Made by a program: the position numbers and the translations under genes. Shown one piece after another: positions 17,396-64,000 of a stretch of 64,000 nt of DNA. Below the pieces are notes generated by a model, which was not told the DNA's origin, did not search any database, and was given only the letters and a program-made list of their open reading frames with translations. Position 1 is the stretch's first letter, and each line of letters starts with the position of its first letter. The stretch is from Rhodococcus opacus (GTDB lineage: Bacteria; Actinomycetota; Actinomycetes; Mycobacteriales; Mycobacteriaceae). The stretch lies in assembly GCF_012396235.1 (NCBI RefSeq), contig NZ_JAAXPA010000031.1:1-64000 (forward strand), read 5' to 3'.

Positions 17396-17415
17396 GCCCG
17401 AAACCCTACCCACCT

Positions 17416-18210: not shown

Positions 18211-18277
18211 ACCGGTGACGGTAGCAAGGCGCTGCGCGCCTGTGCGCGGTTAGCGAGTCCCAGGACTCGTCACGCAC

Positions 18278-19090: not shown

Positions 19091-19175
19091 CGGTGATCAG
19101 CCTAGCGAGTCGACGCCGTTACGAGGCGAAGCGGTACCCGGACACCCCGTGTCGGTTTTGCCCGGACCCATCGTC

Positions 19176-20111
19176 TCAGTTACCGCCGAGCTTCGGCAGC
19201 TCGGTGCTGATGATCGTCTCGGCCATCATCGTGCCGTTCTCGACCTTCGTTCCCTGCACCATCACGGTGAACCCGGGCTTCAGATCGGCGACCGTGGTGC
19301 CGTCGAGTGCGATCACATTGGTCTGCGCGTTGGTCTGGACCGTCAACTGGGAACCGCCGAGGGCGTCGAGGGTCAGAGTGGAGCCGTCGTTGGCGCTGAT
19401 CGTTCCGAACGCGGCGCCGGCAGCGCCGATGGCCTCGCCGATTCCGCCGGGGAGTTGATCGAGCGGCGACTCCGACGTGGTGGACGGCGGCGGGGTCGTC
19501 GTCTTCGGCGGCGCGGTGGCGGGCGGACGGGACGTGGTGGGGCCCGCCGCCGTGGTGCTCGAGGAATTGTTCGGCGCGGATGTGAAGAGGGCGACACCGA
19601 AGCCGATGACGGCGATCAGCAGCAGCGCGGCCGCGGTCGCGGCGATCCACGTGCCGATCCGGCGGGGTTTCTTCTCCTCGGGACTCTCGGCGACCGGCGC
19701 CTGGTACTGCGAGCCCGGGTACTGGGCGTTCGGGTACTGCCCCGTCGGATACCCGCCCTGGTACTGCTGGGCGTCGTACGTCGGATACGCCTGTGTGGCG
19801 TTCGGCGGCGGAGCCTGCGGGTCGTACCGCGGATCGTAGGTCGGGTAGGCCTGCGTCGGATTGGGCTGGTTCCGCCCGTACGCCGCGGTCGGATCGGACG
19901 TGTAGAACTGCTCGGTCGGTGTGCCTGCGGGGCCCATGTGCTCGGTGCGCTGCTCGGGCGATCCGAGATGCTCGGTCGGCTGGTCCCGCCGCGACCACGC
20001 CTGGGTGGGGTCCTCGTCACCAGCCCTCGACGCGGAATCGTCGGTGGTCCACGACTCCGTTCCGTCGTACGCGCGTTCCTGCGGGGTGCGCGGGTCGTCG
20101 GGGTTCGTCAT
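19176..20111 (-). CDS. Membrane-anchored protein with Tyr/Pro/Gln-rich cytoplasmic tail and DUF5666-like outer domain
   Basis: A 311-residue protein. The first 150 residues are disordered and rich in Thr, Pro, Tyr and Gln, with repeated QPTEHLG/QRTEHMG and TQAYPTYD units. One transmembrane helix follows (about 155-175, TWIAATAAALLLIAVIGFGVAL), then a Ser/Thr/Pro linker and a C-terminal beta domain of about 85 residues (ISANDGSTLTLDALGG ... VTLxxGTTVxxLKPGFTVMVQG) of the DUF5666 type. The cytoplasmic Thr/Tyr-rich tail looks like a substrate of mycobacterial-type Ser/Thr kinases. The ribosome site GGGAGGGG precedes ATG at 20111. Function unknown. Confidence 0.82.
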   Translation of the reverse strand: MTNPDDPRTPQERAYDGTESWTTDDSASRAGDEDPTQAWSRRDQPTEHLGSPEQRTEHMGPAGTPTEQFYTSDPTAAYGRNQPNPTQAYPTYDPRYDPQAPPPNATQAYPTYDAQQYQGGYPTGQYPNAQYPGSQYQAPVAESPEEKKPRRIGTWIAATAAALLLIAVIGFGVALFTSAPNNSSSTTAAGPTTSRPPATAPPKTTTPPPSTTSESPLDQLPGGIGEAIGAAGAAFGTISANDGSTLTLDALGGSQLTVQTNAQTNVIALDGTTVADLKPGFTVMVQGTKVENGTMMAETIISTELPKLGGN

Positions 20112-20207
20112 GATCGGCCCCTCCCTCGGGTTCGTCCGGCCGGTGTCCTGCGGCTACGGACGGTCCAGGGTAACGACGAAACTTAAGACGTCGCTGTGAA
20201 AACACAG

Positions 20208-20248
20208 GTGAGTGGCACGGCGTGCGGGAGCACACCGTGCCACTCACC
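20208..20248. terminator. Hairpin terminator (GTGAGTGGC family) downstream of clpB
   Basis: 14 bp (20208-20221 region with 20235-20248), one mismatch, then a further GTGC/GCAC pair and a 4-nt loop, directly after the clpB stop at 20256. The outer arm GGTGAGTGGC is shared with the hairpin at 16814-16859. Confidence 0.85.
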
Positions 20249-20255
20249 CGAGGGG

Positions 20256-22808
<2,553 letters not shown>

Positions 22809-22896
22809 TGTTCACCTCTTCTGGCGTTGTAGAGCGGTCCGCCGCCCGGGGCCGAGTGGCACGTGGCGACGCTGTCATCTTCTTAACGCGCGAAGG

Positions 22897-22917
22897 GTTG
22901 AGTCTGTTCCGCTCAAC
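22897..22917. promoter_or_regulatory. HAIR box (HspR operator) upstream of clpB
   Basis: Arms GTTGAGT (22897-22903) and GCTCAAC (22911-22917) separated by 7 nt match the HAIR layout (consensus arms CTTGAGT and ACTCAAG, 7-nt spacer) with two changes. On the minus strand TTGAGC could also be the -35. The HspR gene is in this window (36920-37327). Confidence 0.85.
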
Positions 22918-22944
22918 TTTGGAAATTTTCCGCTACACCCATTC

Positions 22945-22974
22945 TCTCGCCCCGCGACGGTTCGCGGGGCGAGA
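22945..22974. terminator. Hairpin terminator downstream of the mycolyltransferase-like esterase
   Basis: A perfect 13-bp GC-rich stem (22945-22957 with 22962-22974, arm TCTCGCCCCGCGA) with a 4-nt loop begins 2 bp after the esterase stop codon (22977). It insulates the clpB promoter region from the upstream esterase transcript. Confidence 0.88.
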
Positions 22975-22976
22975 TG

Positions 22977-24056
22977 TCAGGCCCCGATCGCGGCCGCCAT
23001 CGTCGGCCAGGATGCGGACAGGTCGTCGCGCCAGTACCCCCACGAGTGTGTGCCGACCGGCCGGAGATCGACCGTGGCCGGAATGTCCAGGGCGCGGAGT
23101 TTCTCCGCCAGCCGTATCGTGCAGTCGTTGGTGACGGCCTCGATGACACCACCCACCACGACCTGCGTCGCGAGGTTGCGACGGTCGCCGCCGACGGTCC
23201 GGGCGTCGAGGGTGTCGTACGGTCCCGGCAGCCCGCTGCCATTGGAGATGTAGAGGGTGGTCCCCCGGAGCTTCTCCGCGTTGACGTACGGATCGTTCGC
23301 GGCCCACAGCGGATCGTTGGCCGCACCCCACATGTTCTCGGGGTTGCCGCCGAAGTCCGACACCGTGATCTCGACGAACCGCCGCGCCACCGGGTCGCTC
23401 GTCATCGCGCACCCGCTGTACGCCCCGACGCTCTGATACAGCCCCGGCTTGGAGATCGCGAGGTTGAGGACGCTGGTGGCCGACATGGACAGCCCGGCGA
23501 TGGCGTTCTTCCCGGTCGTCTCGAGCGCGGAATCGACGATGGGTGACAGTTCCTTCGTCAGGAACGTCTGCCACTTGTTCCGCCCGAGCTCGGGGTCGTC
23601 CTGCTTCCAGTCCGCGTAGTAACTGGACTGGCCACCGAACGGGATGACCACGTTGACGTCCTTGTCGGAGAAGAACTTCTCGACGTCCGCCTTCTGCTCC
23701 CAGCCGAACTGCTCGGAGTTCCCCTCGACGCCGCCGAGCATGTAGACGGTGGGACGCTTCTCCGACGCGGCCCGGATGACCCGGACGGTGATGTCCTTGT
23801 CCATGGCGGTCGAGTGGACGGTGAAGTTCATCTGCGATTCGCCCACCGTGGTGACCTCGACCAACCGCGAACCGTCGGGCGCCTCGTCGGCCGAGATCGA
23901 CTCGATCGTCGTCCGGGGTTCGGCGGAGACGACGCCTCCGCCGCCGATCGCCGTCAGCGTCACGGCCGCCACGACAGCGGCGGCTCGGCGAACCCGGGCC
24001 GAACTGGGCATCCCCGGACGAAACCGACCCCGATCCCGCGCACCGCCAACTCTCAT
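22977..24056 (-). CDS. Secreted mycolyltransferase/esterase of the antigen 85 type
   Basis: A 359-residue exported alpha/beta hydrolase. The signal peptide is long, with [20 protein letters not shown] and likely cleavage after VVSA near residue 45. The nucleophile elbow is GLSMSA (Ser in GLSMS, about residue 180) and the late His lies in [13 protein letters not shown]; an acidic partner sits between. The early [18 protein letters not shown] and [20 protein letters not shown] segments are typical of corynebacterial-type mycolyltransferases (Cmt/Ag85), which move mycolates between trehalose mycolates and arabinogalactan. ATG at 24056 follows GAGGGG. A stop-adjacent hairpin ends the transcript. 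The lack of the fibronectin-binding region is normal for non-mycobacterial members. Confidence 0.88.
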
Positions 24057-24244
24057 GGGCCCCCCTCGGTAACACTGCCTGTTAACTGGATGCATCGTGC
24101 CTTGCCGGTGGTCACAGCTCAATAGCGACCCACCGAAATACCGGGGGCACACGCCGAACCGGCCGTTGCCGTAACCCGGGGTCCGCCCGCGGGACGGCTA
24201 GAATGCGGGTGTTCGAATCAGCAGGCACGGAGGCAGGGGACGGC

Positions 24245-25423
24245 TTGACACGAGATTGCCTCGATCCGCTCGTGATTTCGCGTCTGCGCGCCAGCTTTTC
24301 GTCGATCGTGTCCACCGAACACGGACGCAACCGGCTCACCACCACGTTCTACGCCACCCTGTTCGCCGAACACCCCGAATTCCGCGCGCTCTTCCCGCCT
24401 GCGCTGGATCAGCAGGGTCACCGCCTGTTCCAGGCACTGCAGTTCGTCATCGACAACCTCGACGACGAGGGCCGGGTCCTCGGTTTCCTCAGCCAGCTCG
24501 GCCGCGACCACCGCAAGTACGGCGTCGAGGGCAGGCACTACTTCGCGTCGGGCAATGCGCTGCTGGTCGCCGTGCAGAGTTCCTTCACCCAGGCCATCTG
24601 GACGCCCTCGCTGACCGCGGCCTGGACGGAACTGCTCGACCTCCTCCTCCACACGATGGCCGACGCCGCGGACACCGACGACCTGCCCGCCGCGTGGGGC
24701 GCCACCGTGGTCGATCACGAACGCCGCCTCGACGACCTCGCGATCGTCCGTCTCGAGACCGACTCCCCCATCCCCTACGGTGCGGGCCAGTACCTCAGCG
24801 TCCAGATCCCGCAGCGACCCCGGATGTGGCGGTACCTGTCGGCTGCCATCCCCGCCAACCCGTACGGCCAGCTCGAGTTCCACGTCCGCCGCGTGTCGGG
24901 TGGGTGGGTGAGCCCCGCCATCGTGAACGAGACGCAAGTGGGCGACCGCTGGCTGCTCAGCTCCCCGCTGGGCGGTCTCGAGGTCGACCGCGACAGCGGG
25001 CAGGACGTCCTGATGATCGGTTCGGGGACCGGCATCGCGCCGCTGCGCGCCCAGGTGATGGAAATGGCGATGCGGTCGAACAATCCGCGGGTCCACATGT
25101 TCGTGGGCGGCAAGTATCCGTGCGATCTGTACGACATCGAGACTCTGTGGCACCTGTCGCTGAGCAATCCGTGGCTGACCGTGGTTCCCGTGTCCGAGGA
25201 GGACGAGGACCCGTGGTGGCACACGATTCCCGCCCCGGAGGCGCCGCCGGGATTGCATCAACGACTCCAGGGGCAGCTCGGCCGCGTCGTCGCCCGGTTC
25301 GGGTCGTGGGCGGACCGGCAGATCCAGATCTCCGGTTCTCCGGCGATGATCAAGACCACCGTGTACGCGTTGCAGCGCGGCGGTACACCGCCCGAACTGA
25401 TCCGGCACGACCCCCTGATCTAG
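24245..25423 (+). CDS. Type II-like flavohemoglobin (globin + FAD/NAD reductase) 1
   Basis: A 392-residue fusion of an N-terminal globin (1-135) and a ferredoxin-reductase-like FAD/NAD module (150-392). The proximal heme His is probably His89 in LGRDHRKYGV. The FAD region reads RMWRYLSAA and the NAD region GSGTGIAP; the C-terminus is PELIRHDPLI. The modified flavin and heme pockets resemble the mycobacterial type II flavohemoglobins (Rv0385, next to clpB), not the nitric oxide dioxygenase Hmp. TTG at 24245 is chosen because the AGGCAGGGGA ribosome site precedes it and the length then matches Rv0385; the upstream ATG at 24203 overlaps a TAGAAT -10-like box. A stand-alone reductase follows 60 bp downstream. 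Confidence 0.88.
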   Translation: MTRDCLDPLVISRLRASFSSIVSTEHGRNRLTTTFYATLFAEHPEFRALFPPALDQQGHRLFQALQFVIDNLDDEGRVLGFLSQLGRDHRKYGVEGRHYFASGNALLVAVQSSFTQAIWTPSLTAAWTELLDLLLHTMADAADTDDLPAAWGATVVDHERRLDDLAIVRLETDSPIPYGAGQYLSVQIPQRPRMWRYLSAAIPANPYGQLEFHVRRVSGGWVSPAIVNETQVGDRWLLSSPLGGLEVDRDSGQDVLMIGSGTGIAPLRAQVMEMAMRSNNPRVHMFVGGKYPCDLYDIETLWHLSLSNPWLTVVPVSEEDEDPWWHTIPAPEAPPGLHQRLQGQLGRVVARFGSWADRQIQISGSPAMIKTTVYALQRGGTPPELIRHDPLI

Positions 25424-51169: not shown

Positions 51170-51972
51170 TGCTCGCTCGTCAGCGCCAGCAGGTGATCCT
51201 CGACGAGGTCACCTCCCGCGGTGCGGTGAAGGTCGTCGACCTCGGCGCGACACTCGGGGTCTCCGACATGACCATCCGGCGCGACATCAACGAACTCGTC
51301 GAGCAGGGTCTCGTCGAGCGGGTGCACGGCGGGGTCACCCTGCCGCGGTCGGCGAGTGTGCACGAACCGGGGTTCTCGGCGAAGTCCGAACTCGACCGCG
51401 AGGCCAAGCAGGCCATCGCCCGCGCCGCCGCCCGGCTGGTGCGCCCGGGCACGTCGGTGGGCATCTCCGGCGGCACCACCACGCACGCCCTCGCCCGCGA
51501 ACTCCTCGACGTCCCCGACATCACCGTCGTCACCAATTCGCTGCCCGTCGCCGACGCGTTCCACGAGGGTGGCCGCGACGACCAGACCATCCTCCTGACC
51601 GGTGGTCAGCGCACGCCGTCCTTCGCTCTGGTCGGGCCGCTCACGGTCGCCGCGCTGCGCGGCATCCACGTGGACATGCTGTTCCTGGGGACGCACGGGA
51701 TGGGGATCGACTCGGGACTTACCTGCCCCAATTTGATGGAAGCACAGACCAATCAGGCGCTCGTCGCGTCGTCGCGGCGGGTCGTGGTGCTCGCCGACCA
51801 CACGAAGTGGGGTGTGACCGCGTTGGCGAACACGATCCCGCTGTCCGACGTCGACATCCTCATCACCGACGCCGGGCTCGAGCGCGCCGCCCAGGAATCT
51901 CTTGCCGACCACGTCGGCGATCTCGTGGTGACACGGGAGAACCGGGAAGGACTCGTCGATGACCGTGCGTGA
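51166..51972 (+). CDS. DeoR-family transcriptional repressor
   Basis: A 268-residue DeoR protein. The N-terminal helix-turn-helix is RQQVILDEVTSRGAVKVVDL then LGVSDMTIRRDINELVEQGLVERVHGG, the classical DeoR signature (part: SDMTIRRDINEL). The C-terminal DeoR sensor domain includes ISGGTTTHALARELLD and VVLADHTKWG, which bind phosphorylated sugars. Its start overlaps the beta-galactosidase stop (ATGA) and galT overlaps its 3' end by 14 nt. It likely controls the divergent locus through the TGATCGAA repeat, sensing a galactose or tagatose phosphate. Confidence 0.93.
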   Translation: MMLARQRQQVILDEVTSRGAVKVVDLGATLGVSDMTIRRDINELVEQGLVERVHGGVTLPRSASVHEPGFSAKSELDREAKQAIARAAARLVRPGTSVGISGGTTTHALARELLDVPDITVVTNSLPVADAFHEGGRDDQTILLTGGQRTPSFALVGPLTVAALRGIHVDMLFLGTHGMGIDSGLTCPNLMEAQTNQALVASSRRVVVLADHTKWGVTALANTIPLSDVDILITDAGLERAAQESLADHVGDLVVTRENREGLVDDRA

Positions 51973-53125
51973 CGAACAGGAGGCGCGGGAGACCGGCACA
52001 CGGCTCCGGATGCGCAAGACCCGGACGACCCTCGCGGACGGCCGCGAACTGATCTACTTCGACGACTCCGAGCCGTATGTGTCGGGCGGCGCCACCCGCG
52101 AGTTGGTGGATTCACGGCCGCTGCCGCCGGCGGTGTCGCAGTCGCAGATGCGCTTCGACGTGCTCACCGGGGAGTGGGTGGTCATCGCCGCCCAGCGGAT
52201 GGACCGCACGTTCCTGCCGCCGCCGGACGCGTCGCCGCTCGCCCCGAGCATGCCGGGCAAGGCGCCCACGGAGATTCCGGCCGACGACTACGACGTGGTG
52301 GTGTTCGAGAACCGCTTCCCGTCGCTGGCGACGGGCGCCGCCGAGCAGGACCTTCCGGACTGCGTCGACGGAGAAGCGTTGTGGCCGTTGGCACCGGGGG
52401 CGGGCAGGTGCGAGGTCGTGTGCTTCACCAGCAACCCGGATGCCGCGTTCTCCACCCTGAACGTCGACCGGGTCCGCACCGTCGTCGACGTCTGGGCCGA
52501 CCGCACCGCCGACCTGTCGGCGCTGCCGGGGGTCCGGCAGGTGTTCTGCTTCGAGAACCGGGGCAAGGAAATCGGCGTCACCCTGACCCATCCGCACGGG
52601 CAGATCTACGCCTACCCGTACCTGCCGCCCCGCACGGACGCGCTGATCCGGCGCTCCCGCGAGCACTTCGAGAGCACCGGGCGACTACTGCTCGCCGATG
52701 TCCTCGACGCCGAAACACGATCCGGCAGGCGCGTGGTCCTGGCCGCCGAGCACTGGACCGCATACGTTCCCGCCGCCTCGCGCTGGCCGCTGGAGGTGCA
52801 TCTCGCACCGCACCGCGACGTCCGTGACCTCACCGAACTGTCCGACGACGAGCGCGACGAACTCGCCCACGTCTATCTCGAACTGCTGCGCCGGGTCGAC
52901 CGGTTCTTCGACGGCGTCGACGCCGTGCCCTACATCGCCGCGTGGCACCAGGCGCCCGTCGGAGAGGACCGTCCGCTCGGACGCCTGCACCTGCAACTGT
53001 TCTCGATGATGCGTTCCCCCGGCCGGATGAAGTACCTGGCGGGATCCGAGTCCGGGATGGGGGCGTGGGTCAACGACACCACCCCCGAGCGCATCGCCGA
53101 CCGGCTGCGGGAGGTGGCGTCGTGA
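51959..53125 (+). CDS. galT: Galactose-1-phosphate uridylyltransferase
   Basis: A 388-residue Leloir-pathway enzyme that swaps UMP between UDP-glucose and galactose-1-phosphate. The active-site HPHGQ is seen in TLTHPHGQIYAYPY (about residue 210), where the second His is uridylylated. The N-terminal half has RFDVLTGEWVVIAAQRM and VVVFENRFPSL. It has an unusual N-terminal extension of about 40 residues (RRKTRTTLADGRELIYFDD-like, part TRTTLADGRELIYFDD), common in actinobacterial GalT. It overlaps deoR (14 nt) and galK (GTGA). Confidence 0.96.
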   Translation: MTVRDEQEARETGTRLRMRKTRTTLADGRELIYFDDSEPYVSGGATRELVDSRPLPPAVSQSQMRFDVLTGEWVVIAAQRMDRTFLPPPDASPLAPSMPGKAPTEIPADDYDVVVFENRFPSLATGAAEQDLPDCVDGEALWPLAPGAGRCEVVCFTSNPDAAFSTLNVDRVRTVVDVWADRTADLSALPGVRQVFCFENRGKEIGVTLTHPHGQIYAYPYLPPRTDALIRRSREHFESTGRLLLADVLDAETRSGRRVVLAAEHWTAYVPAASRWPLEVHLAPHRDVRDLTELSDDERDELAHVYLELLRRVDRFFDGVDAVPYIAAWHQAPVGEDRPLGRLHLQLFSMMRSPGRMKYLAGSESGMGAWVNDTTPERIADRLREVAS

Positions 53126-54312
53126 GTGCGCCGCAGTGGGTCACCCCCGTCGACCCCGACGCGGTCGCAGGTACCGCCGAGGCGATGTTCCGCAGCACGT
53201 TCGGCGGCGCCGCGGACGGCGTCTGGACTGCACCAGGCCGGGTCAACCTCATCGGTGAGCACGTCGACTACGCCGGCGGACTGGTACTGCCGTTCGCCCT
53301 CCCCTACGTGACCGTCGTCGCCGTCCGAGTACGCGACGACGGGATCCTGCACGCCGTGTCCACGCACACCGGCGAGTCCTGGCACGGTCCGCTCGACGAC
53401 GTCGCCCCGGGCCACCCGGCCGGCTGGGCCGCGTACGTCGCCGGGGTGGTGTGGGCGCTACGCCGGTCCGGACATCTCACGGCGGGAACCGGTTTCGACG
53501 TGGCGGTGCATTCGACGGTCCCCGTCGGCTCCGGGCTGTCGAGTTCGGCCGCGCTCGAGTGCGCGTTCGCGCTCGCCGTCGCCGACCTCGCCGGCCTGCC
53601 CACGGACGACTCCGGCCGCCGACAACTGATCACCGCGTCCATCCTCGCGGAGAACGAGATCGCCGGCGCGTCCACCGGCGGCATGGACCAGTCGGTCGCG
53701 ATGCTCGCCCGCCCCGGCCACGCCCTGCTCCTCGACTGCCGCGGCGGCGCGACCCGGCACGTTCCACTCGACTTCGACGCCGCAGGCGCCCGACTGGTCG
53801 TCATCGACACCAACGCGCCGCACCGGCTGGTCGACGGCCAGTACGGCAACCGGCGCGCCACCGTCGAGAAGGCCTGCGCCGACCTCGGCGTCGCCACCCT
53901 GCGCGACGTCGCCGACGTCGACGCGGCCGTCGCGGCGCTGAGTTCCCCGGCAGCGCAGCGGGTCCGGCACGTGCTCGGCGAGATCCATCGCGTCCGGGAG
54001 GTCGCCGACCTGCTCGACCGCGGCCGGATCACCGACATCGGCGACGCCCTGAACCGCTCGCACGCCTCGTTGCGCGACGACTACGAGGTCAGCTCCGTCG
54101 AACTCGACTCCGCCGTCGAGGCCGCCCTCGAGGCCGGCGCCTGGGGTGCGCGGATGACCGGTGGCGGCTTCGGCGGCTCCGCGATCGCCCTCGTTCCGGC
54201 CGACCGGATCGACGCCGTCGTCGAGAACGTCGCCCGACGCGCCGACACCGCCGGCCTGCCGGTCCCCCAGTTCCTGCACGCCGAGCCGTCGGGCTCGGCA
54301 CACCGACTCTGA
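53122..54312 (+). CDS. galK: Galactokinase
   Basis: A 396-residue GHMP kinase. The galactokinase signature GRVNLIGEHVDYAGG is near residue 34, the ATP loop PVGSGLSSSAALE near 135, and the late MTGGGFGGSAIAL near 350. It phosphorylates galactose at C1. The GTG start overlaps the galT stop (GTGA). The frame is also open upstream into galT but the conserved start rules that out. Followed after 28 bp by the ABC ATPase. Confidence 0.96.
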   Translation: MSAPQWVTPVDPDAVAGTAEAMFRSTFGGAADGVWTAPGRVNLIGEHVDYAGGLVLPFALPYVTVVAVRVRDDGILHAVSTHTGESWHGPLDDVAPGHPAGWAAYVAGVVWALRRSGHLTAGTGFDVAVHSTVPVGSGLSSSAALECAFALAVADLAGLPTDDSGRRQLITASILAENEIAGASTGGMDQSVAMLARPGHALLLDCRGGATRHVPLDFDAAGARLVVIDTNAPHRLVDGQYGNRRATVEKACADLGVATLRDVADVDAAVAALSSPAAQRVRHVLGEIHRVREVADLLDRGRITDIGDALNRSHASLRDDYEVSSVELDSAVEAALEAGAWGARMTGGGFGGSAIALVPADRIDAVVENVARRADTAGLPVPQFLHAEPSGSAHRL

Positions 54313-54340
54313 GATCCCCTTCCACGACCAGGAGAACACC

Positions 54341-55423
54341 ATGGCACGAGTCACGTACGACGCAGCCACCAAGATGTACCCCGGTTCCGATGTGCCGGCC
54401 GTCGATTCGCTGAACCTCGACATCGAGGACGGCGAATTCCTCGTCCTCGTCGGCCCCTCCGGGTGCGGCAAGTCGACGTCGCTGCGGATGCTGGCCGGTC
54501 TCGAGAACGTCGACTACGGTGCCATCCGCATCGGCGAACGCGACGTCACCGCCCTCGCACCGAAGGAACGGGACATCGCGATGGTGTTCCAGAACTACGC
54601 GCTGTACCCCCACATGACGGTCGCGAAGAACATGGGCTTCGCCCTCGAGATCGCCGGCATGGACAAGAGTGAGATCGGCCGCCGCGTCGAGGAGGCCGCG
54701 AAGATCCTCGATCTCGGCGACTACCTGAACCGCAAGCCGAAGGCACTCTCCGGTGGGCAGCGCCAGCGTGTCGCGATGGGCCGGGCGATCGTCCGCGACC
54801 CGCAGGTGTTCCTCATGGACGAACCGCTGTCGAACCTCGACGCGAAACTGCGGGTGCAGACCCGCACCCAGATCTCGCTGTTGCAGCGCCGGCTGGGCAC
54901 CACCACCGTGTACGTCACCCACGATCAGGTGGAGGCCATGACCATGGGCGACCGTGTGGCGGTCATGAAAGCGGGCATCCTGCAGCAGTGCGCGAGCCCG
55001 AAGACGCTGTACGAGAAGCCGGTCAACAGCTTCGTCGCCGGGTTCATCGGGTCGCCGGCCATGAACCTGTTCGAGGTCGACGTCGTGAACAGCGCCGCCC
55101 GGATCGGTTCGCTGTCGACGCCGATCGAGCGGTCGGTGCTGGGCGCCCTGGACACCGGCCGGGTCGTCGTCGGTGTCCGCCCGGAGGCGTGGACCGTGTC
55201 CGACCAGGGCACCACGGTGAAGGTCGATGTGGTCGAGGAACTCGGCGCGGACGCCTACATCTACGGGCGCATCGTCCGCGACGGCGAACTCGGCGGACAC
55301 GACATCGTCGCGCGCGTCGGCGACTCCGTCTCCCCGGCCAAGGGCGAGGTGATCCGGCTGGCACCGGACCGGGCTCGCCTGCACTACTTCTCGCCCACGA
55401 CAGGTGCGCGACTCGGCGACTGA
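54341..55423 (+). CDS. ABC sugar transporter ATPase (MsmK/UgpC type)
   Basis: A 360-residue ATPase. Walker [11 protein letters not shown] loop [14 protein letters not shown] signature [14 protein letters not shown] and Walker [14 protein letters not shown], followed by the regulatory TOBE/MalK-type C-terminal domain (residues 240-360, [10 protein letters not shown]). It energises CUT1 permeases; the two permeases of this locus (45632, 46567) are in the divergent arm and lack their own ATPase. GGAGAACACC precedes the ATG. Sitting between galK and galE is unusual for a transporter ATPase. Confidence 0.95.
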
Positions 55424-55461
55424 GCGAACCGAGCCCCCACCGCCGAACCGAAGGAACAACA

Positions 55462-56454
55462 GTGAAACTTCTCGTCACCGGCGGCGCCGGTTACGTCGGC
55501 AGCGTCTGCGCCCAGCGGCTGCTCGAGTGCGGCCACACGGTCGTGATTGTCGACGACCTGTCGACCGGTAACGCCGACGCGGTGCCGGCAGGAGCGGAGT
55601 TCGTCGAGGAGGACGTCGCGAGCGCAGCCGAACGGGTTCTCGGCGGCGCGGAGTTCGACGGCGTGCTGCATTTCGCCGCCCGCTCCCTCGTCGGCGAGTC
55701 GGTGGTGACGCCGGAGACGTACTGGAACGCCAACGTCGTCAAGACCCTGACCCTGCTCGAGGCGATGCGCTCGTCCGGTACCGGCCGGCTGGTGTTCTCC
55801 TCCACCGCAGCGACGTACGGCTCTCCGGAGTCCGTGCCGATCACCGAGGACGCACCGACCCGGCCGACCAACCCGTACGGTGCCACCAAACTGGCGATCG
55901 ACCACGCGATCACGTCGTACGCGGTCGCGCACGGGCTGGCGGCGTGCAGCCTGCGCTACTTCAACGTCGCGGGCGCGTACGCCGGACTCGGCGAGAACCG
56001 TCTCGTGGAAACACACCTGATCCCGCTGGTGCTGCAGGTCGCTGCCGGGCGACGGGACGAGATCTCGGTGTTCGGCACCGACTGGCCCACCCCGGACGGC
56101 ACCGCCGTCCGCGACTACATCCACATCCGCGACCTGGCAGAGGCGCATATCCTCGCGCTCGAATCGACCCGGCCCGGAACGCACCGCGTCTACAACCTCG
56201 GTACCGGCACCGGGTTCAGTGTGCGGGAGGTGATCTCGTCCTGCGAACGCGTGACGGGCCGAACTATCGCCACCCGGGACGCCCCGCGGCGCGCCGGCGA
56301 TCCGGCGGTGCTCGTCGCGTCCGGCGCACGTGTGCAGGCCGAACTGGGCTGGCGGCCGAGACACCCGGACCTCGATGAGATCGTGGCCGATGCGTGGACG
56401 TATCTGCAGTCGCTGGGCGCGCGGGAACGCTACCGTGGTGCAGTGCGGTCGTGA
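55462..56454 (+). CDS. galE: UDP-glucose 4-epimerase
   Basis: A 330-residue extended SDR. The NAD motif TGGAGYVGS is at the N-terminus, the catalytic Ser/Thr in FSSTAATYG and the YxxxK in [20 protein letters not shown] and [13 protein letters not shown] complete the GalE signature. It interconverts UDP-galactose and UDP-glucose, closing the Leloir cycle and supplying UDP-galactose for arabinogalactan. GTG at 55462 follows AAGGA. It is the last galactose gene; the DUF2252 gene starts 43 bp later. Confidence 0.96.
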
Positions 56455-56496
56455 CGAGGCGTGTGGCGCCCCGTGGACCGCGAGAAGGAGGCTGGT

Positions 56497-57816
56497 GTGG
56501 ACGTCGCCGATTCCACGAGGCAGGGTCGGATCGTGGAGGTCCTCGTCGAGGCCTTCGCCGATCTGATGGAGGCGGACCCGAGCGCGTTTCGCACGAAGTT
56601 CCGGAAGATGGCCGCCGATCCGTTCGCCTTCTTCCGGGGCAGCGCCTGCCTCTTCTACGACGATCTGCGTGACTTCGACGATCCGTGGGCGGACGAGCGC
56701 ACCGGCCGAGTGTGGATTCACGGCGATCTACACCTGGAGAATTTCGGCACGTACATGAACTCGGAGGGCACCCTCGTCTTCGACGTCAACGATTTCGACG
56801 AGGCGTACGTGGGGCCGTTCAGCTGGGATCTTCGTCGGTTCGTCGCGAGTCTCGCACTGATGGGCTGGCAGAAGGCCCTCCCCGAGAGCGATGTCCGGGC
56901 ACTCGCCGACACGTACCTGCGCAGCTATGTCGAGCACGTCCTGCACTACGTGCAGCGGGAAGCGGACGACGCGTACGCGCTGCGCCTGGACAATTCGCGC
57001 GGCGCCATCCAGGACCTGCTGCTGAGCGCGCGCCTCGCCACCCGGGTGGACCTGCTCGAGTCCGTCACGGTGATCGAGGACTACGACCGGCGTTTCCGGC
57101 GGGGCCGCGGTGTCCGCGAACTCGACGAGAAGGAACGCAGGACCGTGTGCGAGGCGCTGGACACGTACATCGAGAGGGTGCCCCGCAGCAAGCGATCCGC
57201 GCGACCGGTGTTCTACCGAGTCAAGGACGTGGTCGGGCGGAAGGGTTTCGGGATCGGCAGCGCCGGCCTCCCGGCGTACAACGTGCTCATCGAAGGGGCG
57301 ACCCAGGCGCTCGAGAACGACATCGTGCTCTCCCTCAAGCAGGGCAACGTCGCCGCACCGAGCCGCATCGTCGACGAACCCCGGGTCCGCGACTACTTCG
57401 AGCACGAAGGCCACCGCACGGTGGTGAGTCAGCGCGCGTTGCAGGTCCACACGGATCCGCTGCTCGGCTACACGGAGATCGGCGGCACCGGTTTCGTGGT
57501 CGCCGAACTCTCCCCGTACGAACTGGACCTCGACTGGTCGGATCTCACCGAACCGGAGGACATCGCGCCGGTGCTCGAAGACCTCGGCCGGGCCACGGCG
57601 AAGGTGCATTGCGTCTCCGACGAGGACAGCGACCAGACCCTCGTCACGTTCCAGACCGAGGACGCCATCCAGAACGTGGTCGACGGCAGGCTGGACGAGT
57701 TCGTCGGCGAGATCATCGACTTCGGCATCGCGTACGCCGAGGTGAGCCGCAAGGATCACCAGCTGTTCGTGAACGCCTTCCGGGAGGGCGAGATCGCGGG
57801 CGTCTCCGCGACGTAG
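56497..57816 (+). CDS. DUF2252 protein (kinase-like fold)
   Basis: A 439-residue cytosolic protein. A phosphotransferase-like catalytic loop is visible as WIHGDLHLENFG (about residue 75), followed by VFDVNDFDEAYVGP with the metal-binding Asp, and GPFSWDLRRFVASL. These match DUF2252, a family distantly related to aminoglycoside-phosphotransferase/protein kinases. GTG at 56497 is preferred over 56461 because AAGGAGG (56485-56491) precedes it by 6 nt. It may be co-transcribed with galE or have its own promoter. It converges on iniC-like with 5 bp between stops. Substrate unknown. Confidence 0.85.
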   Translation: MDVADSTRQGRIVEVLVEAFADLMEADPSAFRTKFRKMAADPFAFFRGSACLFYDDLRDFDDPWADERTGRVWIHGDLHLENFGTYMNSEGTLVFDVNDFDEAYVGPFSWDLRRFVASLALMGWQKALPESDVRALADTYLRSYVEHVLHYVQREADDAYALRLDNSRGAIQDLLLSARLATRVDLLESVTVIEDYDRRFRRGRGVRELDEKERRTVCEALDTYIERVPRSKRSARPVFYRVKDVVGRKGFGIGSAGLPAYNVLIEGATQALENDIVLSLKQGNVAAPSRIVDEPRVRDYFEHEGHRTVVSQRALQVHTDPLLGYTEIGGTGFVVAELSPYELDLDWSDLTEPEDIAPVLEDLGRATAKVHCVSDEDSDQTLVTFQTEDAIQNVVDGRLDEFVGEIIDFGIAYAEVSRKDHQLFVNAFREGEIAGVSAT

Positions 57817-57821: not shown

Positions 57822-59318
57822 CTACAGACGGACGGTGTTCAGTTCCTCCAGAACACCTTCCGCGCTGCGGGCCGCGACGGTGCAGGCCCTCGCGGTGAAC
57901 TGGTCGAGCAACGGGTGGCGCGCCCGTTCGCGCCACTTCCGGACCGCGGCGAGGGCCCGCATCCGCTGCAACTCCACGGAGTCGTGGCCGTCGGTGCCCA
58001 ATCGTTCGGCGATCTGGATCCCGAATCCGCCGATCAGGCGTTGCAACTCGGCCACGTCGTCGGCGGGCAACCCCACGTCGGTGGACCGCAGCCGCCCGAG
58101 CAGCCGCAGTTCCTGGAAACCGTGCACGTCGGAGAGCAGCCGTTCGGCCGACATCAGGATCTCACCCGCACCCTGCACCGGATGTGCCGTGAGCACCCGC
58201 TTGAGTGCCACGAGTGCCGAATGGGTCTTCAACTGATCGGTCCGCTGCCCGAACTGGATGTCGATCACCTGACGCAATTCGTCGAGGCCGCTGCGTTCCA
58301 CCAGTTCCGCCGCCAGCGTCGGCGAGTCCTTGGTGCCCAACCGGATCAGGGTCACCGCCATCCGGATCCCGAAGAGCCCGAAGCGGTCTGCCAACTGAGC
58401 CCGCATCCGGGCGTCCACGGGAAGCGGACTGTCCTCACGCGCGAACCGGTCGGCCGACAGCATCGCCAGGTTCAGATCGTCCACCGGAACCTCGGCCAGA
58501 TGCTGGAACGCGCTGAACTCCGCCTGACGCATCGTGCGCGCGCCGAGCGCCAGCAGACCCGCGACGGGGACGACGGCCTGACACAGCCCGGTGCGCTCGA
58601 GCTCGCCCGCGAACCGGGACGCCACCTCCTTCGCGGACATCATGGCGTCCAGGCGTCCCGCCCCCACCTCGTCGGCCCGCGACACGACACCGACCACCCC
58701 GAGCGGTCCCGATTCGTCGCCCACGTGGTCGCCGATCTGACCGAGGAACTGGACGTCGGTCGCGTTGAGCGTGCGCAGCAGGTAGACCACGGCGTCGGCG
58801 CCGGACGCCTCGTTGTCGGGTGTGAGCATCTCGAGGGTGCGGGCCGAGACGTCCCGCGACAGTGAGGACGTGCCCGGGGTGTCGATGATCGTCGTGTGCG
58901 CCAGGGCGGACGACGGCCACTCCACGTCGAGGCGGTCCACCCGGTCGGCGGTGAGGTGGCCGAGGTCGAACGTGAGATGTCCGTCCCGGCGCAGCACCGG
59001 GACGTTGGCGGAACGCTGAGCGCCGCTGCCGTTGTCCGGCTGATACCAGGCCGTCACGGTGGGCGTCGACCCGCTCCGATACCAGGTGACGACGCGGGTG
59101 CACTCGGTCGCGTCGGTGGGCGCGATATCCTGCCCCACCAGGGAATTGAGCAGAGTGGACTTGCCGGCCTTCAGCGAACCGGCCAGGGCCACGCGCAGCG
59201 GTTGTTCCAGTCGCCGGGCACATTCGGTCAGCTGATCCCGAATCTCGGGTCTGCCCGCGTACAGCTGCCGGGCGGACGCGATGAGTGCCCGGGCCTCGTG
59301 AAGTGGAGCGGCCGTCAT
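57822..59318 (-). CDS. iniC: Dynamin-like GTPase, IniC-like
   Basis: A 498-residue dynamin-like GTPase. G1 GSLKAGKSTLLNSLVG near residue 48, G3 DTPGTSS and G4 SRADE are present; the rest is helical. M. tuberculosis IniC (493 aa) is similar in length and context. Its start overlaps the stop of the IniA-like gene (ATGA). Dynamin-like pairs usually form hetero-oligomers on membranes; here a role at the cell envelope is inferred from the ini link. Symbol by context and length, not by alignment. Confidence 0.85.
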   Translation of the reverse strand: MTAAPLHEARALIASARQLYAGRPEIRDQLTECARRLEQPLRVALAGSLKAGKSTLLNSLVGQDIAPTDATECTRVVTWYRSGSTPTVTAWYQPDNGSGAQRSANVPVLRRDGHLTFDLGHLTADRVDRLDVEWPSSALAHTTIIDTPGTSSLSRDVSARTLEMLTPDNEASGADAVVYLLRTLNATDVQFLGQIGDHVGDESGPLGVVGVVSRADEVGAGRLDAMMSAKEVASRFAGELERTGLCQAVVPVAGLLALGARTMRQAEFSAFQHLAEVPVDDLNLAMLSADRFAREDSPLPVDARMRAQLADRFGLFGIRMAVTLIRLGTKDSPTLAAELVERSGLDELRQVIDIQFGQRTDQLKTHSALVALKRVLTAHPVQGAGEILMSAERLLSDVHGFQELRLLGRLRSTDVGLPADDVAELQRLIGGFGIQIAERLGTDGHDSVELQRMRALAAVRKWRERARHPLLDQFTARACTVAARSAEGVLEELNTVRL

Positions 59319-61159
59319 GCCGTGACCGCTCCCGCGTCGCCTGCGACGAGTTGCGCGGCTTGCTGTTTCAGTTCGGATGCGACGTGGAGATCCTTTTCGA
59401 GCTGCGCGATCCGACGGGTCCGTTCGGTGGACTCGAGGTTCGCCGCCTCCTGCGCGCCGCGCAGCGAGTCGTTGATCGACCGCAGCGCCTGCTCGGCGAT
59501 CGCGCTGAAATGATCGCGCAGCAAGCGCTGGATCGACCGGAGCCGATCCTTCGACTCCTTGCCCACCTGGAAGCTGGCGTCGTCGGCGAACCGGCGGATC
59601 GCGGCCTTCGCCTCCGCACGCCGCTTCAGGATCCGGCTCTCCTTGTCTTCCCGGTACGCCTTGGTGCCGAGGAGGACTCCGGCGCCGATCGAGATCGGAT
59701 TGACCAGGGCCATCCCCATCATCGTGGTGATCAGACCGAACATGAGGACGCCGCCGTACGATCCGCGCATTCCGACGAGAACCTTCTGCGTGATGCCGAT
59801 GCGTCCGGCCTCGAGGTCCGCGAGCGAGGCCACCGGTTCGAGAACACCGTCGACGTTCGCGACGTCCAGGTGCGGCAGTTCGACGGCACCCGTCTCGGCG
59901 AAGTGCTGCGCCACCACCTCGGCCAGCCACAGCGCGCGGTCGTGGGCCCAGACGAAGTTGTCGCCGATCGCGGTGGCGAATTCCTGCTCGAGCCACTGGC
60001 CCAGCGCGTCCCAGTCCTTGCCGGGGTCGCCCTCGTCTACGGTCTCCTCCGCCTCACGGGTGACGCGGCGCAACCGGTCCCGGAGGTCGTGGTCGATGTC
60101 CGCGGCCAGGTCGGCGATGCCGTCGCCGAGCGTCTGCTGCCACAGCGACGTCTTCTTGTGCAGCTCCTCGGCGGCGGCCTTCGCCTTCTGCAGTTCGGCG
60201 ACCGCTGCGACGCCCTTCGCCGGATCACGCAGGGCGGCAAGCTCACTGCCGATCCCCAGGGTGAGATGCTCGGCCGCGGAGGACACGTCCAGCGACACGG
60301 CCCGCCGTGTGTTCGCCTCCGCCCGCGCCACCACCCGTTCGCGCAGGAACGCGTACAGGTCGACGAAACCGGATTCGGTGTTGAGTTCCTCGTCCTGCAG
60401 TCGCAGCGCGTGCGACCGCAGCACCGAGGAGATCGGGATCAGGGGAACGTCGAGACCGGCGCGCGCGAGGTGCCCGCGGTCGGCCTCGACGATCTCGCGC
60501 CAGTGCGGGTACAGGTCCGTCTTGCTGATCAGGCACGCCACCGACGGGCACAGGCTCGTGACCTGACGGATGAAACCGAGCTCCGGTTCGGTGAATTCCT
60601 GGCTGGCGTCGGAGAGAACGAACACGGCGTCCGACGCCGGAATCAGCCCGAGTGTGCTCGCGGCGTGCGGGTTGCCGGCGCCGCCCACGCCGGGTGTGTC
60701 GACCAGGACCAGACCGTCCGCGAGCAGCGGACTCGGGACGTTGACCTCCACCCGCAGCACCTCCCGGCCCTCGGCGCGGGGCGAGGCCGGCGTGATGCCG
60801 TTCAGCTCGTCGAGCGGAAGAGGAACCCGGATCGGGTCGGCGCCCGGATCGGCGAGGAGCAGTTCCGCCGACGCCGTCTCGGCGTTCTGGACGACGGTCG
60901 GGATCGCGGTGGTCTCGTCGTCACCCACCGAGCACACGGTGAGGTTGAGAAGGGAATTCACGAACTGGCTCTTGCCCTGCTTGAGCGGTCCGACCACCAC
61001 GATCCGCATCCGTGGGTCCTGCACCCGGGTCCGGGCCGAGTCCAGGCGCTGCGCCAGGTCGCCGCGCCCGAACCTCTTCGCCACGTCCAGGGCCTGCTCG
61101 AGCAACGCCGTCATCGACTGGGACCCGGCTGGACTCTTCTCGGCGGCTGCACTGTCCAT
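59315..61159 (-). CDS. iniA: Dynamin-like GTPase with membrane segment, IniA-like
   Basis: A 614-residue bacterial dynamin-like protein. G1 GPLKQGKSQFVNSLLN (about residue 58), G3 DTPGVGGAGNP and G4 SKTDLYPHW are clear. A hydrophobic stretch near residue 485 (GGVLMFGLITTMMGMALVNP) resembles the membrane-inserting loop of IniA. Long helical regions flank it. M. tuberculosis IniA is induced by isoniazid and ethambutol and remodels membrane. It is coupled to the IniC-like gene, and 170 bp downstream of the repeat protein with two hairpins between. Confidence 0.87.
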   Translation of the reverse strand: MDSAAAEKSPAGSQSMTALLEQALDVAKRFGRGDLAQRLDSARTRVQDPRMRIVVVGPLKQGKSQFVNSLLNLTVCSVGDDETTAIPTVVQNAETASAELLLADPGADPIRVPLPLDELNGITPASPRAEGREVLRVEVNVPSPLLADGLVLVDTPGVGGAGNPHAASTLGLIPASDAVFVLSDASQEFTEPELGFIRQVTSLCPSVACLISKTDLYPHWREIVEADRGHLARAGLDVPLIPISSVLRSHALRLQDEELNTESGFVDLYAFLRERVVARAEANTRRAVSLDVSSAAEHLTLGIGSELAALRDPAKGVAAVAELQKAKAAAEELHKKTSLWQQTLGDGIADLAADIDHDLRDRLRRVTREAEETVDEGDPGKDWDALGQWLEQEFATAIGDNFVWAHDRALWLAEVVAQHFAETGAVELPHLDVANVDGVLEPVASLADLEAGRIGITQKVLVGMRGSYGGVLMFGLITTMMGMALVNPISIGAGVLLGTKAYREDKESRILKRRAEAKAAIRRFADDASFQVGKESKDRLRSIQRLLRDHFSAIAEQALRSINDSLRGAQEAANLESTERTRRIAQLEKDLHVASELKQQAAQLVAGDAGAVTA

Positions 61160-61329: not shown

Positions 61330-64000
61330 TCACGGCTCGAGGTGATCGACCACGTCCGTGACGTCGTGCGTCGTGGCCACCGAGGAGTCGGTGTCACCGA
61401 ACAGCGAGCCGTCGGTGTCCGCGTGCAGGCCCGAGTCGGCGCCGAACGCGTTGTCCGCGTCGATCGACGACCAGGTGTCGGCGCCGGTGTCGACGGCACC
61501 GCCCAGGGTGGACCCCAGTCCGCCTGCGATCGACCCGGTGGTGTCGGCCACGACCCCGCCGACCGCACCGAGGTCGGCCGCACCGTCCGTGGTCGCGTCC
61601 GCGTCGGCGGAACCGCCGGCCGACGCTCCACCGTCGACCGAACCACCGGCGGACGCTCCGCCGTCGACGGCACCGCCCACTGCGGCTCCACCGTCGACCG
61701 CTCCGCCGACCGCACCGTCGAGTGCGCCTCCGACCGAGGTGCCGAGCGATCCGAGGCCACCCACGCCACCGGACAATCCGGCGCCGAGGTCGGTGACCGC
61801 GTCGGTGGTGGCGTCCAGGCCACCGGTCAGACCGGCAGTGGCGTCGACCGCGCTGTCCAGGCCGCCTTCGACTCCACCGGCCACGTCGCCGCCGATTCCG
61901 GCCGCGGCATCCACGGTGCCGCCGAGACTTCCGCCGACATTCGCAGCCGTGTCCAGAGCGCCACCGACCGTGCCACCCAGATTGGCCGCCGTGTCCAGCG
62001 CGCCACCGAGATTCGCGTCCACGTTCGCACCGGCGTCGGCGACCGCGCCGACCGAGGCGCCGGCCTCACCCACCGCGTCGACGGCACCGCCGACGCTGCC
62101 GGTCAGTGCCGAGCCGAGGCCCGCACCGGTTTCGAAGATTCCACCCAGACCACCGGTGAGGCCGCTGGTCAGACCGGCGCCCAGGCCACCGGCCGTGTCC
62201 AGTCCGCCGACCAGGTTGGTTCCGAGGCTGCCGCCCAGGTCCGCTCCGGCGTCGGCAACCGCACCGACACCCGCCGCGACACCGGCACCGATGCCTGCCG
62301 CGGCGTCCGCGCCGCCTGCGACGCCGCCGCCGACCGCGCCGCCCACGTTGCCCGTGACGTCACTGCCCACGTCGAGCAGTCCGCCGAGCGCGCCGTCGAT
62401 GCCGCCCGTCAGGCCACCCGCGAGATCGGTGCCCGCGTCGAGCGCACCGTCCAGGGCGCCGCCCACGCCTGCTGCGGCGCCGAGTCCGAGGTCGGCGTCC
62501 AGAGCGGAGTCCAGATCGAGTCCGCCACCGGCCTCCAGAGCCGTCTCCAGTGCGGAACCGAGGGTCGCGCTGAGATCGCCGTCGGTTCCGAGGACGCCGC
62601 CGAGCGCGGTGCCCAGCGTGCTGCCGATGCTGCCCTCCGCGCCGAGAACGCTGTCGAGGTCGAGGGCGCCGCCGGTCTCCAGCGCACCGCCGAGCACTCC
62701 GCCGAGCGCCGCGCCGAGGTCGGCGCCCGCGCCGCCACCGACACCGAACGCACCGCCGAGCAGGCCGCCCAGGTCGGTAACGCCGCCGAGGTCGACTCCG
62801 CCGTCCGCGCCGAGCACCGCGTCGAGGGCCGCACCCAGACCGGCGGTGGCGTCACCGTCGACTCCGAGCACCCCGCCGAGCGCGCCACTGATGGTGGTGC
62901 CCAGGTCGGCGCCCGTGTCGAGGACACCGCCCAGCCCGAGGCCGCTCTCCAGGGCGCCGCCCAGGACCGTGCCCAGATTCGCGCCTGCCTCGCCACCCAG
63001 CCCGAGGGCTCCGCTCAGCGCCGTCGTCAGCTCCGACGTCAGTTCTCCGCCGAGACCGAGGTCGGCGCCCAGTCCGCCGTCCAACAGACCGCCCAGGTCG
63101 ATGTCCGTCACGCCGCCTGCGCCGAGCACGGCGTCGAGGGTGCTGCCCAGTTCCGCGGCCAGGCCGCCGTCCAGGCCGAGGGCTCCGCCGAGGACCGTGC
63201 CGAGTGCGGCGTCCAATCCCAGTCCGCTGTCGAGTGCGCCGGACAGGGCTCCGCCGAGGCCACCCTCCAGATCGAGGGCGCCGCCGAGCAGACCACCCAG
63301 GGCTCCACCGAGATCGCCGCTGACGTCACCGCCCGCGCCGAGGACGCCACCGAGGATGCCGCTCAGCGCGCCACCGAGGTCGCCGTCGGCACCGAGAACG
63401 GCGCCGAGGTCGAGGCCGCCACCGGCACCGAGAACGGCGTCCAGTGCGGTACCCAGACCGGCCGTGAGGTCGCCGCCGACTCCGAGTTCACCGCCGAGCA
63501 GTCCGCTCAGCGCACCGCCGAGGCTGCCGCCCGCACCGAGGATCGCGTCGAGGTCCAGTCCGCCGCCCAGGTCCGCGATCGAACCGAGGGTCGCGCCGAG
63601 TGCGCCACCGAGGTCTGCGCTGAGGTCGCCGCCCGCACCGAGGACGCCACCGAGTGCGCCACCGAGAACCGCGCCGAGGTCGGTGCCGAGGACTCCGCCG
63701 AGCGAGCCGGCGACGTCACCGAGCAGTTCACCGCCGAGCAGCCCTTCGAGGGTGGCGCCCAGTCCGCCGCCGGCGCCGATCGCCGCGTCGAGGGCACCGC
63801 CCAGCGCGCCACCGAGACCGGCGTCGACCCCGAGCACGCCGCCGAGGGTCGTTCCGAGCACCCCACCGAGGTCGAGGCCGCCACCGAGTCCGGCGAGGAT
63901 GTCACCGTCCAGGCTGCCACCGAGGTCGACGACGCTTCCGAGAGCGGCACCGAGAGCCGCACCCAGCTCGGCGCCCAGGTCGCCGCCGATCGACAGTGCG
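61330..64000 (-). CDS. Giant Gly/Ala/Leu/Asp repeat protein, IniB-like (5' end outside window)
   Basis: At least 889 residues are encoded and the frame is still open at the window edge, so the start lies beyond 64000. The sequence is almost entirely Gly, Ala, Leu, Val, Asp, Thr, Ser, with few Ile, Glu, Asn; I see no Lys, Arg or Cys, and Phe, Trp and His only in single spots. The upstream two-thirds repeats DLGGALGGVLGAGGDL-type units (about 18-20 residues, Leu every third or fourth position). The downstream third changes to GGALDTAANLGG, then 9-10-residue GGAVDGGAA units. The C-terminus is a non-repeat acidic tail ending DVVDHLEP. Placement before two dynamin-like genes and the Gly/Ala-rich nature fit IniB. 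Role probably envelope-associated; no enzyme motif. Confidence 0.85.
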   Translation of the reverse strand, partial: ALSIGGDLGAELGAALGAALGSVVDLGGSLDGDILAGLGGGLDLGGVLGTTLGGVLGVDAGLGGALGGALDAAIGAGGGLGATLEGLLGGELLGDVAGSLGGVLGTDLGAVLGGALGGVLGAGGDLSADLGGALGATLGSIADLGGGLDLDAILGAGGSLGGALSGLLGGELGVGGDLTAGLGTALDAVLGAGGGLDLGAVLGADGDLGGALSGILGGVLGAGGDVSGDLGGALGGLLGGALDLEGGLGGALSGALDSGLGLDAALGTVLGGALGLDGGLAAELGSTLDAVLGAGGVTDIDLGGLLDGGLGADLGLGGELTSELTTALSGALGLGGEAGANLGTVLGGALESGLGLGGVLDTGADLGTTISGALGGVLGVDGDATAGLGAALDAVLGADGGVDLGGVTDLGGLLGGAFGVGGGAGADLGAALGGVLGGALETGGALDLDSVLGAEGSIGSTLGTALGGVLGTDGDLSATLGSALETALEAGGGLDLDSALDADLGLGAAAGVGGALDGALDAGTDLAGGLTGGIDGALGGLLDVGSDVTGNVGGAVGGGVAGGADAAAGIGAGVAAGVGAVADAGADLGGSLGTNLVGGLDTAGGLGAGLTSGLTGGLGGIFETGAGLGSALTGSVGGAVDAVGEAGASVGAVADAGANVDANLGGALDTAANLGGTVGGALDTAANVGGSLGGTVDAAAGIGGDVAGGVEGGLDSAVDATAGLTGGLDATTDAVTDLGAGLSGGVGGLGSLGTSVGGALDGAVGGAVDGGAAVGGAVDGGASAGGSVDGGASAGGSADADATTDGAADLGAVGGVVADTTGSIAGGLGSTLGGAVDTGADTWSSIDADNAFGADSGLHADTDGSLFGDTDSSVATTHDVTDVVDHLEP

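Follow-up and report, generated by a model that had tools for sequence, protein, structure and literature searches.

An alternating, nearly Lys/Arg/Cys-free acidic repeat in the IniB protein of a Rhodococcus opacus iniBAC operon

Introduction

Of the iniBAC proteins, IniA and IniC are dynamin-like and have been linked to drug stress and the release of vesicles, and IniB is described only as a glycine-rich wall protein in the accessible portions of the sources cited here. According to those portions, IniA has a weak membrane-cutting activity in vitro (PMC6715688), and normal vesicle release in Mycobacterium tuberculosis needs IniA/IniC (review PMC11077946). The IniB of M. tuberculosis has been reported to occur in the cell wall and to lower dye uptake on expression in M. 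smegmatis (PMC7350357). RNA data suggested a large amount of IniB per IniA/IniC, and the iniB gene of M. marinum was reported to be 3,000 bp long (PMC5760070). In this work, a 64,000-nucleotide stretch of Rhodococcus opacus DNA (assembly GCF_012396235.1, contig NZ_JAAXPA010000031.1, positions 1 to 64,000; hereafter the window) was analysed, the minus strand of which carries a long Gly/Leu/Ala/Asp-dominated frame at its end. This gene is, with near certainty, the iniB of a Rhodococcus iniBAC operon.

The Rhodococcus protein shares with the Mycobacterium IniB (Rv0341) the N-terminal NF038175 domain, the place ahead of iniA-iniC and beside an iniR-like gene, and an acidic, Gly/Ala-containing chain of variable length. 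However, six IniB/IniB* proteins of three genomes inferred to be Mycobacterium carried Lys/Arg, showed no parity of acidic residues and were 173-348 aa long. The mycobacterial dynamin-like IniA had its counterpart in the partner gene downstream (E 4e-186 to the solved structure) and not in the repeat protein. A literature search, confined to the titles and abstract openings listed and with most subscription journals outside its reach, gave no account of the parity rule, the Lys/Arg/Cys taboo or the leader-like N-terminal domain described below.

Identification of the iniB gene

The minus-strand frame at 61330-64000 encoded 889 residues and was open to the window edge. Its composition (G 279, L 154, A 148, D 90, V 66, T 56, S 46, E 18) agreed with the original prediction of a Gly/Leu/Ala/Asp-dominated protein lacking Lys, Arg and Cys. 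The contig (106,876 bases) goes on beyond the window, and the iniB frame was open for 1,911 codons. The start was placed at the ATG at contig position 64671, which is preceded by AGGAGA, because the conserved MATNAVLDFILGLLRD begins there; each of the 20 relatives fetched from the genus had this sequence too, allowing for D/E and G/S changes. The resulting product was 1,113 aa long, with a pI of 4.05 and a charge of about -127. The following features were assigned:

61330..64000, minus strand: iniB residues 225-1113 and the stop codon (open frame; full gene with NCBIfam NF038175 on the N-terminus)
62380..64000, minus strand: Leu-rich repeat part within the window, residues 225-764, with L-x-small-x tetrads and a higher period of ~18
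61480..62379, minus strand: Val/Ala-richer repeat part, residues 765-1064, with the Asp/Glu parity unchanged
61333..61479, minus strand: acidic C-terminal tail, residues 1065-1113
61441..61473, minus strand: WSSIDADNAFG, residues 1067-1077, the window copy of a conserved Trp motif (alignment and motif count)

Residues 5-53 matched NCBIfam IniB_NTERM NF038175 over model positions 1-49 of 49 with 74 bits against a cut-off of 40; the kinship with IniB, for which a check of the N-terminus of the full gene had been proposed, was thereby borne out. The Pfam scan of IniB gave no match. A whole-protein search of the same genome found iniB as the sole copy. The only Arg (R15) and both Cys of the protein lay within the N-terminal domain, and Lys was absent; hence, the predicted absence of Lys, Arg and Cys held for the repeat and failed for the N-terminal domain. 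The predicted switch from a Leu-rich to a Val/Ala-rich part was also seen: Leu numbered 16-26 per 100 residues as far as residue 764 and then fell to 12, 9 and 7 in three successive blocks, and Val rose from 3-9 per 100 residues before residue 764 to 11 after it.

The plus strand across the repeat held two further open frames of 886 and 881 aa. The minus frame was taken as the gene because of the conserved N-terminal domain, the ribosome-binding site, the ratio of nonsynonymous to synonymous substitution rates (dN/dS) and the orthologs. The median dN/dS was 0.092 over 58 IniB ortholog pairs, and the values ranged from 0.035 to 0.267 in the 40 pairs listed. An artefact or non-coding low complexity was rejected on the basis of the dN/dS, the orthologs and a reading-frame control. 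The low dN/dS, which shows strong purifying selection, together with the frame-specific taboo described below, indicated that the repeat was more than chance or low complexity.

The IniB domain was present in 21 of 28 genomes of the genus, in 216 of 401 genomes of the wider family (20 of 31 genera) and in 115 of 298 genomes at the order level. Additionally, 80 named loci were collected, 14 of which were without an IniB (12 had a short upstream flank, and two, from Hoyosella, had a frame of >2,249 aa running off the locus). The remaining 66 named relatives overlap the genus set by species, therefore the counts of the two sets are not independent.

The Lys/Arg/Cys taboo

The 21 IniBs of the genus, one of which was ended by a contig boundary, had no Lys and one Arg in the N-terminal domain; after residue 64, there was no Lys, Arg or Cys. 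In 38 non-Mycobacterium genes of the family, 33,294 codons past residue 64 encoded 1 Arg, 0 Lys and 0 Cys. In the same genes, Arg lay within one base by 20,965 steps, second only to Val, and the count for stop codons was 0 for 3,182 steps.

The 66 named relatives (61,480 residues) contained 12 Arg, 1 Lys and 1 Cys, of which 8 Arg and 1 Cys came from the odd C-terminus of a single protein (L144), which looks out of frame and was removed. The 65 proteins left had 4 Arg, 1 Lys and 0 Cys in 60,747 codons past residue 64, whereas the five alternative frames of this DNA held from 5,806 to 24,273 Arg triplets. It was therefore concluded that the absence of Lys, Arg and Cys is a taboo maintained at the protein level. 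The taboo was weaker in the six proteins of the inferred Mycobacterium (7 Arg and 9 Lys in 1,169 codons past residue 64) and at the order level, where 18 of 21 proteins had Lys or Arg after residue 64.

Since the protein holds one Arg and no Lys, trypsin should be nearly blind to it and leave residues 16-1113 as one fragment, so that standard tryptic proteomics would hardly see IniB.

The parity rule

Within residues 65-1098 of the window IniB, the two alternating position classes separated Asp/Glu from Leu: all 117 Asp/Glu belonged to one class, and 171 of the 181 Leu to the other. Successive Asp/Glu were separated by an even residue count in 116 of 116 cases, against at most 0.59 in 200 shuffles. 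At the greasy parity, 229 sites were Gly/Ala, one base from Asp/Glu, and no Asp/Glu occurred there before the last 13 residues.

Even spacing of Asp/Glu was found in 85-100% of cases in 20 other proteins of the genus and in 74-100% in 17 proteins of the family from 12 other genera, and the position class switched phase 0-3 times in the genus and family IniBs where this was counted. The 66 named relatives gave 4,683 of 5,079 (92%), with 76-100% per protein. In the proteins of strictest parity, 366 of 372 Asn/Gln/His shared the side of the acidic residues, and 107 of 110 Phe fell on the greasy one. The corresponding values were 26-67% in the six inferred-Mycobacterium proteins and 41-71% in 21 acidic IniB-type proteins at the order level, the Gly content of the latter being lower than in the parity proteins. 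Composition alone was rejected as the cause of the pattern, as the top of 200 shuffles was only 0.57-0.70 in 36 non-Mycobacterium proteins, a set from which L079 and L084 were left out, and as the 21 order-level proteins, though acidic as well, did not exceed 71%. Hence, the parity rule holds in 12 genera beyond Rhodococcus, but neither in the inferred Mycobacterium nor in more distant IniBs.

Period and length of the repeat

Hydrophobic residues of the window IniB recurred at lags 4, 14, 18, 22, 32, 36 and 40, lags 3, 7 and 11 being negative, and the power peaks at 3.58 and 4.53 lay near the fifth and fourth harmonics of 18. Identity was 0.35 at lag 4 and 0.33 at lag 18, with 0.188 expected. 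Lag 18 exceeded a parity-preserving shuffle in 10 of 10 groups (z 7-23), and lags 36 and 54 were clear in Nocardia and in the group of the window protein. Lag 22 (and 44) exceeded 18 in Rhodococcoides, and 14 equalled 18 in the R. erythropolis/globerulus group. As these lags rival 18, the rung length was considered to differ among groups.

Several known repeat architectures were rejected by the lag analysis. An RTX nonapeptide beta-roll would have required lag 9, at which the identity was 0.15, and a pentapeptide repeat or hexapeptide left-handed beta-helix lags 5 and 6 (0.15 and 0.19), all against the expected 0.188; periods 3, 5, 6, 9 and 16 were rejected altogether. Bacterial ice nucleation proteins, with their 16-residue repeats, resemble IniB in the long even-period repeat and a possible in/out alternation, and a solenoid model has been reported for one of them (PMC9418140). 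However, lag 16 of IniB was at chance, lag 18 was high, and AlphaFold2 gave IniB no solenoid.

Between close IniB orthologs, 105 indels were even and 32 odd, the pairs not being independent, and the commonest indel was of 4 residues (48 of 137 gaps). All indels were even between the window IniB and the six nearest relatives shown. The unusual length that had been predicted was real at 1,113 aa, but length alone was not new, given the M. marinum iniB of 3,000 bp (PMC5760070) and relatives measuring up to 1,885 aa. The Hoyosella frames of >2,249 aa (L187, L190) had 25% Gly, ended just upstream of IniA and ran off the locus; these are perhaps the longest IniBs.

Conformation of the repeat

The predicted regular Leu spacing was recovered (4 residues, with a period of ~18). 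The solenoid suggested along with it, such as a beta-solenoid with 18-residue coils, was neither supported nor contradicted by the AlphaFold2 model described below (pLDDT of about 40). A plain amphipathic helix conflicted with the placement of Asp/Glu. In 65 relatives, Asp/Glu made up 11.5% of residues at the odd offsets lying within 20 degrees of Leu on a helical wheel and 2.1% at the even offsets lying at 160-200 degrees. In such a helix, Asp/Glu should lie opposite Leu, but they were found on the Leu side, and this model was rejected. Further, Asp/Glu shunned i+2 neighbours (z -9.1), as would residues sharing one strand face, and showed no such avoidance at i+4 (z -0.4). Based on the Asp/Glu placement and the i+2 avoidance, we lean towards an extended or beta-type form of the repeat over a helical one.

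Two points weigh against this assignment. AlphaFold2, run on the repeat with an alignment of 13 of the 21 genus IniBs, returned low-confidence helices only, with a pLDDT of about 40 and neither strands nor a solenoid. Moreover, a helix with four stripes (Leu, small residues opposite and two polar stripes) would show parity too.

The N-terminal domain and the tail motif

The N-terminal domain was helical in a moderately confident model, and in a profile comparison it matched SonA, a borosin precursor of the ribosomally synthesized and post-translationally modified peptide (RiPP) class with a LigA-type leader (7lts, 8t1s, 9ch7), with E 2.7e-4. The domain of the window protein itself had no Pfam or RiPP-family match. 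The best scores of the domains of its relatives all remained below the curated cut-offs, for LigA (17.5 of 25.3 bits), for RiPP peptides related to NHLP (TIGR04509, 24.7 of 34) and for NF038399 (19.7 of 40). These profiles suggest that the IniB domain is distantly similar to LigA/RiPP-leader domains. Unlike in RiPP precursors, the domain precedes ~1,000 residues rather than a short core, and no modifying enzyme was recognised nearby. The Pfam scan of 12 neighbouring proteins, two of which had no family at all, detected no radical SAM or other peptide-modifying enzyme. Searches of the genome for a PoyD-type epimerase and an NHLP peptide gave no match, but they gave none in the control genomes either, so absence was not shown. 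By eye and with no dedicated prediction, no Sec-type signal was visible in IniB.

At the other end of the chain, W[STQ][SGDAN][IVL]D was located 43-75 residues from the end in 54 of 65 relatives, in 33 of these as WSS[IVL]D.

Proposed role of IniB

We proposed that IniB is a size-variable acidic two-faced scaffold which works with IniA/IniC in envelope stress, a reading we hold at slightly less than even chances. The N-terminal domain would dock IniB on a partner, and the repeat would form a two-faced acidic strut, more likely of beta type than helical. The greasy face of the strut would pack inward, the acidic face would stay soluble and away from anionic lipid, and the Trp tail could provide a second contact. 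Under envelope stress, many copies of IniB might act as a scaffold or spacer for the IniA/IniC membrane-remodelling machine, or might make the envelope stiffer at the sites where that machine works. The docking domain, the long acidic two-faced strut and the tail motif would fit such a role.

Alternatively, IniB might be a silk- or amyloid-like wall fibre, exported by an unknown route, that reinforces or seals the wall, with IniA/IniC acting separately inside. Lack of Lys, Arg and Cys would then aid membrane-potential-driven export and folding outside. The Cys-free repeat, the net negative charge, the two-faced alternation and the length variation are consistent with this, as are the wall location and the lowered dye uptake reported for the M. 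tuberculosis protein (PMC7350357, accessible part). However, the inferred-Mycobacterium IniB is a different variant, the N-terminal domain is similar to docking domains with an intracellular role, and the lack of a Sec-type signal by eye also disfavours export; we regard the fibre as unlikely, if a serious contender. The repeat as a giant RiPP-like precursor, with an NHLP/LigA-type leader presenting it to an enzyme that modifies, for example, every second residue, would explain the leader-like domain and the strict positional alternation. This was judged very improbable, given that no modifying enzyme was recognised among the 12 scanned neighbours and that the genome gave no PoyD-type epimerase match, in a search that gave none in control genomes either.

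The two remaining alternatives concern the state of the chain. An alpha-helical array, in which helices of ~13 residues carry Leu at i+4 opposite a stripe of small residues and are joined by GAGGD-type loops, agrees with the AlphaFold2 helices of low confidence, many of them 12-18 aa long, with hydrophobic lags 4, 14, 18 and 22, with the 3.58 spectral peak and with a weak PDB sequence match to a designed helical toroid (E 0.005). It is made rather unlikely by about 30% Gly with many GG pairs, by Asp/Glu being frequent at the odd offsets of the Leu face and scarce at the even offsets of the polar face, by the negative lags 3, 7 and 11, and by the avoidance of i+2 but not i+4. A largely disordered hydrophobic polyanion, acting as a condensate or brush that crowds the membrane for the dynamins, would leave the parity as a relic of tetrapeptide duplication. 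The pLDDT of about 40, the high Gly content and length changes mostly by 4 residues (48 of 137 gaps) point in this direction, but the median dN/dS of 0.092, the parity rule kept between genera, the exclusion of Asp/Glu from one parity though the Gly/Ala there are one base away, and lag 18 exceeding the parity-preserving shuffle speak against it, and we consider it improbable.

Tentatively, and with the balance of our judgement against it, the Rhodococcus-Nocardia-Gordonia-Williamsia IniB may represent a new structural class of protein polymer. Such a polymer would be nearly Lys/Arg/Cys-free, parity-locked and built of about 19 to over 100 rungs near 18 residues each, with a RiPP-leader-type docking domain and mostly a Trp cap, and would serve as a size-variable acidic strut for the dynamin pair. 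With its parity rule, leader-like domain and tail motif and the almost complete absence of Lys/Arg/Cys, IniB becomes directly testable. A repeat that turned out to be an ordered strut would provide a new designable fold.

The iniBAC operon and its surroundings

The two dynamin-like GTPases expected behind the repeat gene were identified as IniA and IniC by Dynamin_N and 6j72:

59315..61159, minus strand: iniA, dynamin-like GTPase, 614 aa (Pfam Dynamin_N, 52 bits; M. smegmatis IniA structure 6j72, E 4e-186, residues 19-606)
57822..59318, minus strand: iniC, dynamin-like GTPase, 498 aa (Pfam Dynamin_N, 46.5 bits; 25% identical to iniA)

The iniC gene overlapped the end of iniA by 4 bases, and the window IniA showed 100% identity with its counterpart in R. 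wratislaviensis NCTC13229. Outside the window, upstream of iniB and divergent from it, lay an Hsp70-like gene (contig 65029-66852), whose product has a Pro/Ala-rich tail and, at residue 416, a hydrophobic stretch. It was followed within a few bases by an IniR-like LuxR regulator (contig 66860-68803) and then by a second gene similar to the Hsp70-like one, without a Pfam match (contig 68956-70119). Two more genes lay beyond, one of which matched trypsin. In M. smegmatis, a dnaK-like gene has been reported to adjoin iniR (PMC5760070).

An IniA ortholog was present in the same 21 genus genomes as the IniB domain. In the 20 of the 21 genus loci that spanned the region, IniR, Hsp70-like, IniB, IniA and IniC were found in 20 of 20 (IniA/IniC of the own locus were taken from the window), and the second Hsp70-like gene in 19, being not seen in L038. 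At the order level, the IniB domain was adjoined by IniA in 19, IniR in 17 and an Hsp70-like gene in 15 of 20 loci, some of which end at contig boundaries.

The IniR-like protein matched NF038181 with 484 bits (cut-off 750) at model positions 186-824, the N-terminal part of the model being unmatched. As the match begins at position 186, most of the N-terminal ATPase domain seems to be missing; in M. marinum IniR, this domain spans residues 24-247 (PMC5760070, accessible part). The open frame of the IniR-type gene in locus L034 was longer, at 838 codons. Both Hsp70-like proteins (contig 65029-70119) had one hydrophobic stretch each and long low-complexity tails, and were conserved next to iniR.

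The iniB promoter region (contig 64672-65028) contained two conserved ATCCCCTA-type boxes, with small variants, in all 16 aligned genus loci. The 357 bp between iniB and the Hsp70-like gene of the window genome held three ATCCCC/GGGGAT. These boxes may resemble the MalT box.

A second IniA-like protein, 49-51% identical, occurred in 8 of 28 genus genomes, for example at G026:C16:13795-15192, about 23 kb from iniA; it was not found in the genome of the window. On the opposite strand beside iniC, the window (51959-57816) carried a DUF2252 gene and a galT-galK-ABC ATPase-galE-type run.

Two of the named loci were odd. The IniB of Prescottella defluvii (L144) had a terminal stretch with Arg that set it apart from the other relatives, probably owing to a frameshift in the sequence or the gene. 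A record titled Kitasatospora arboriphila NRRL B-24581 (L154) carried a Williamsia-like iniBAC, which suggests mislabelling of the assembly; its IniB shared 97.5% identity with the W. muralis protein (L155).
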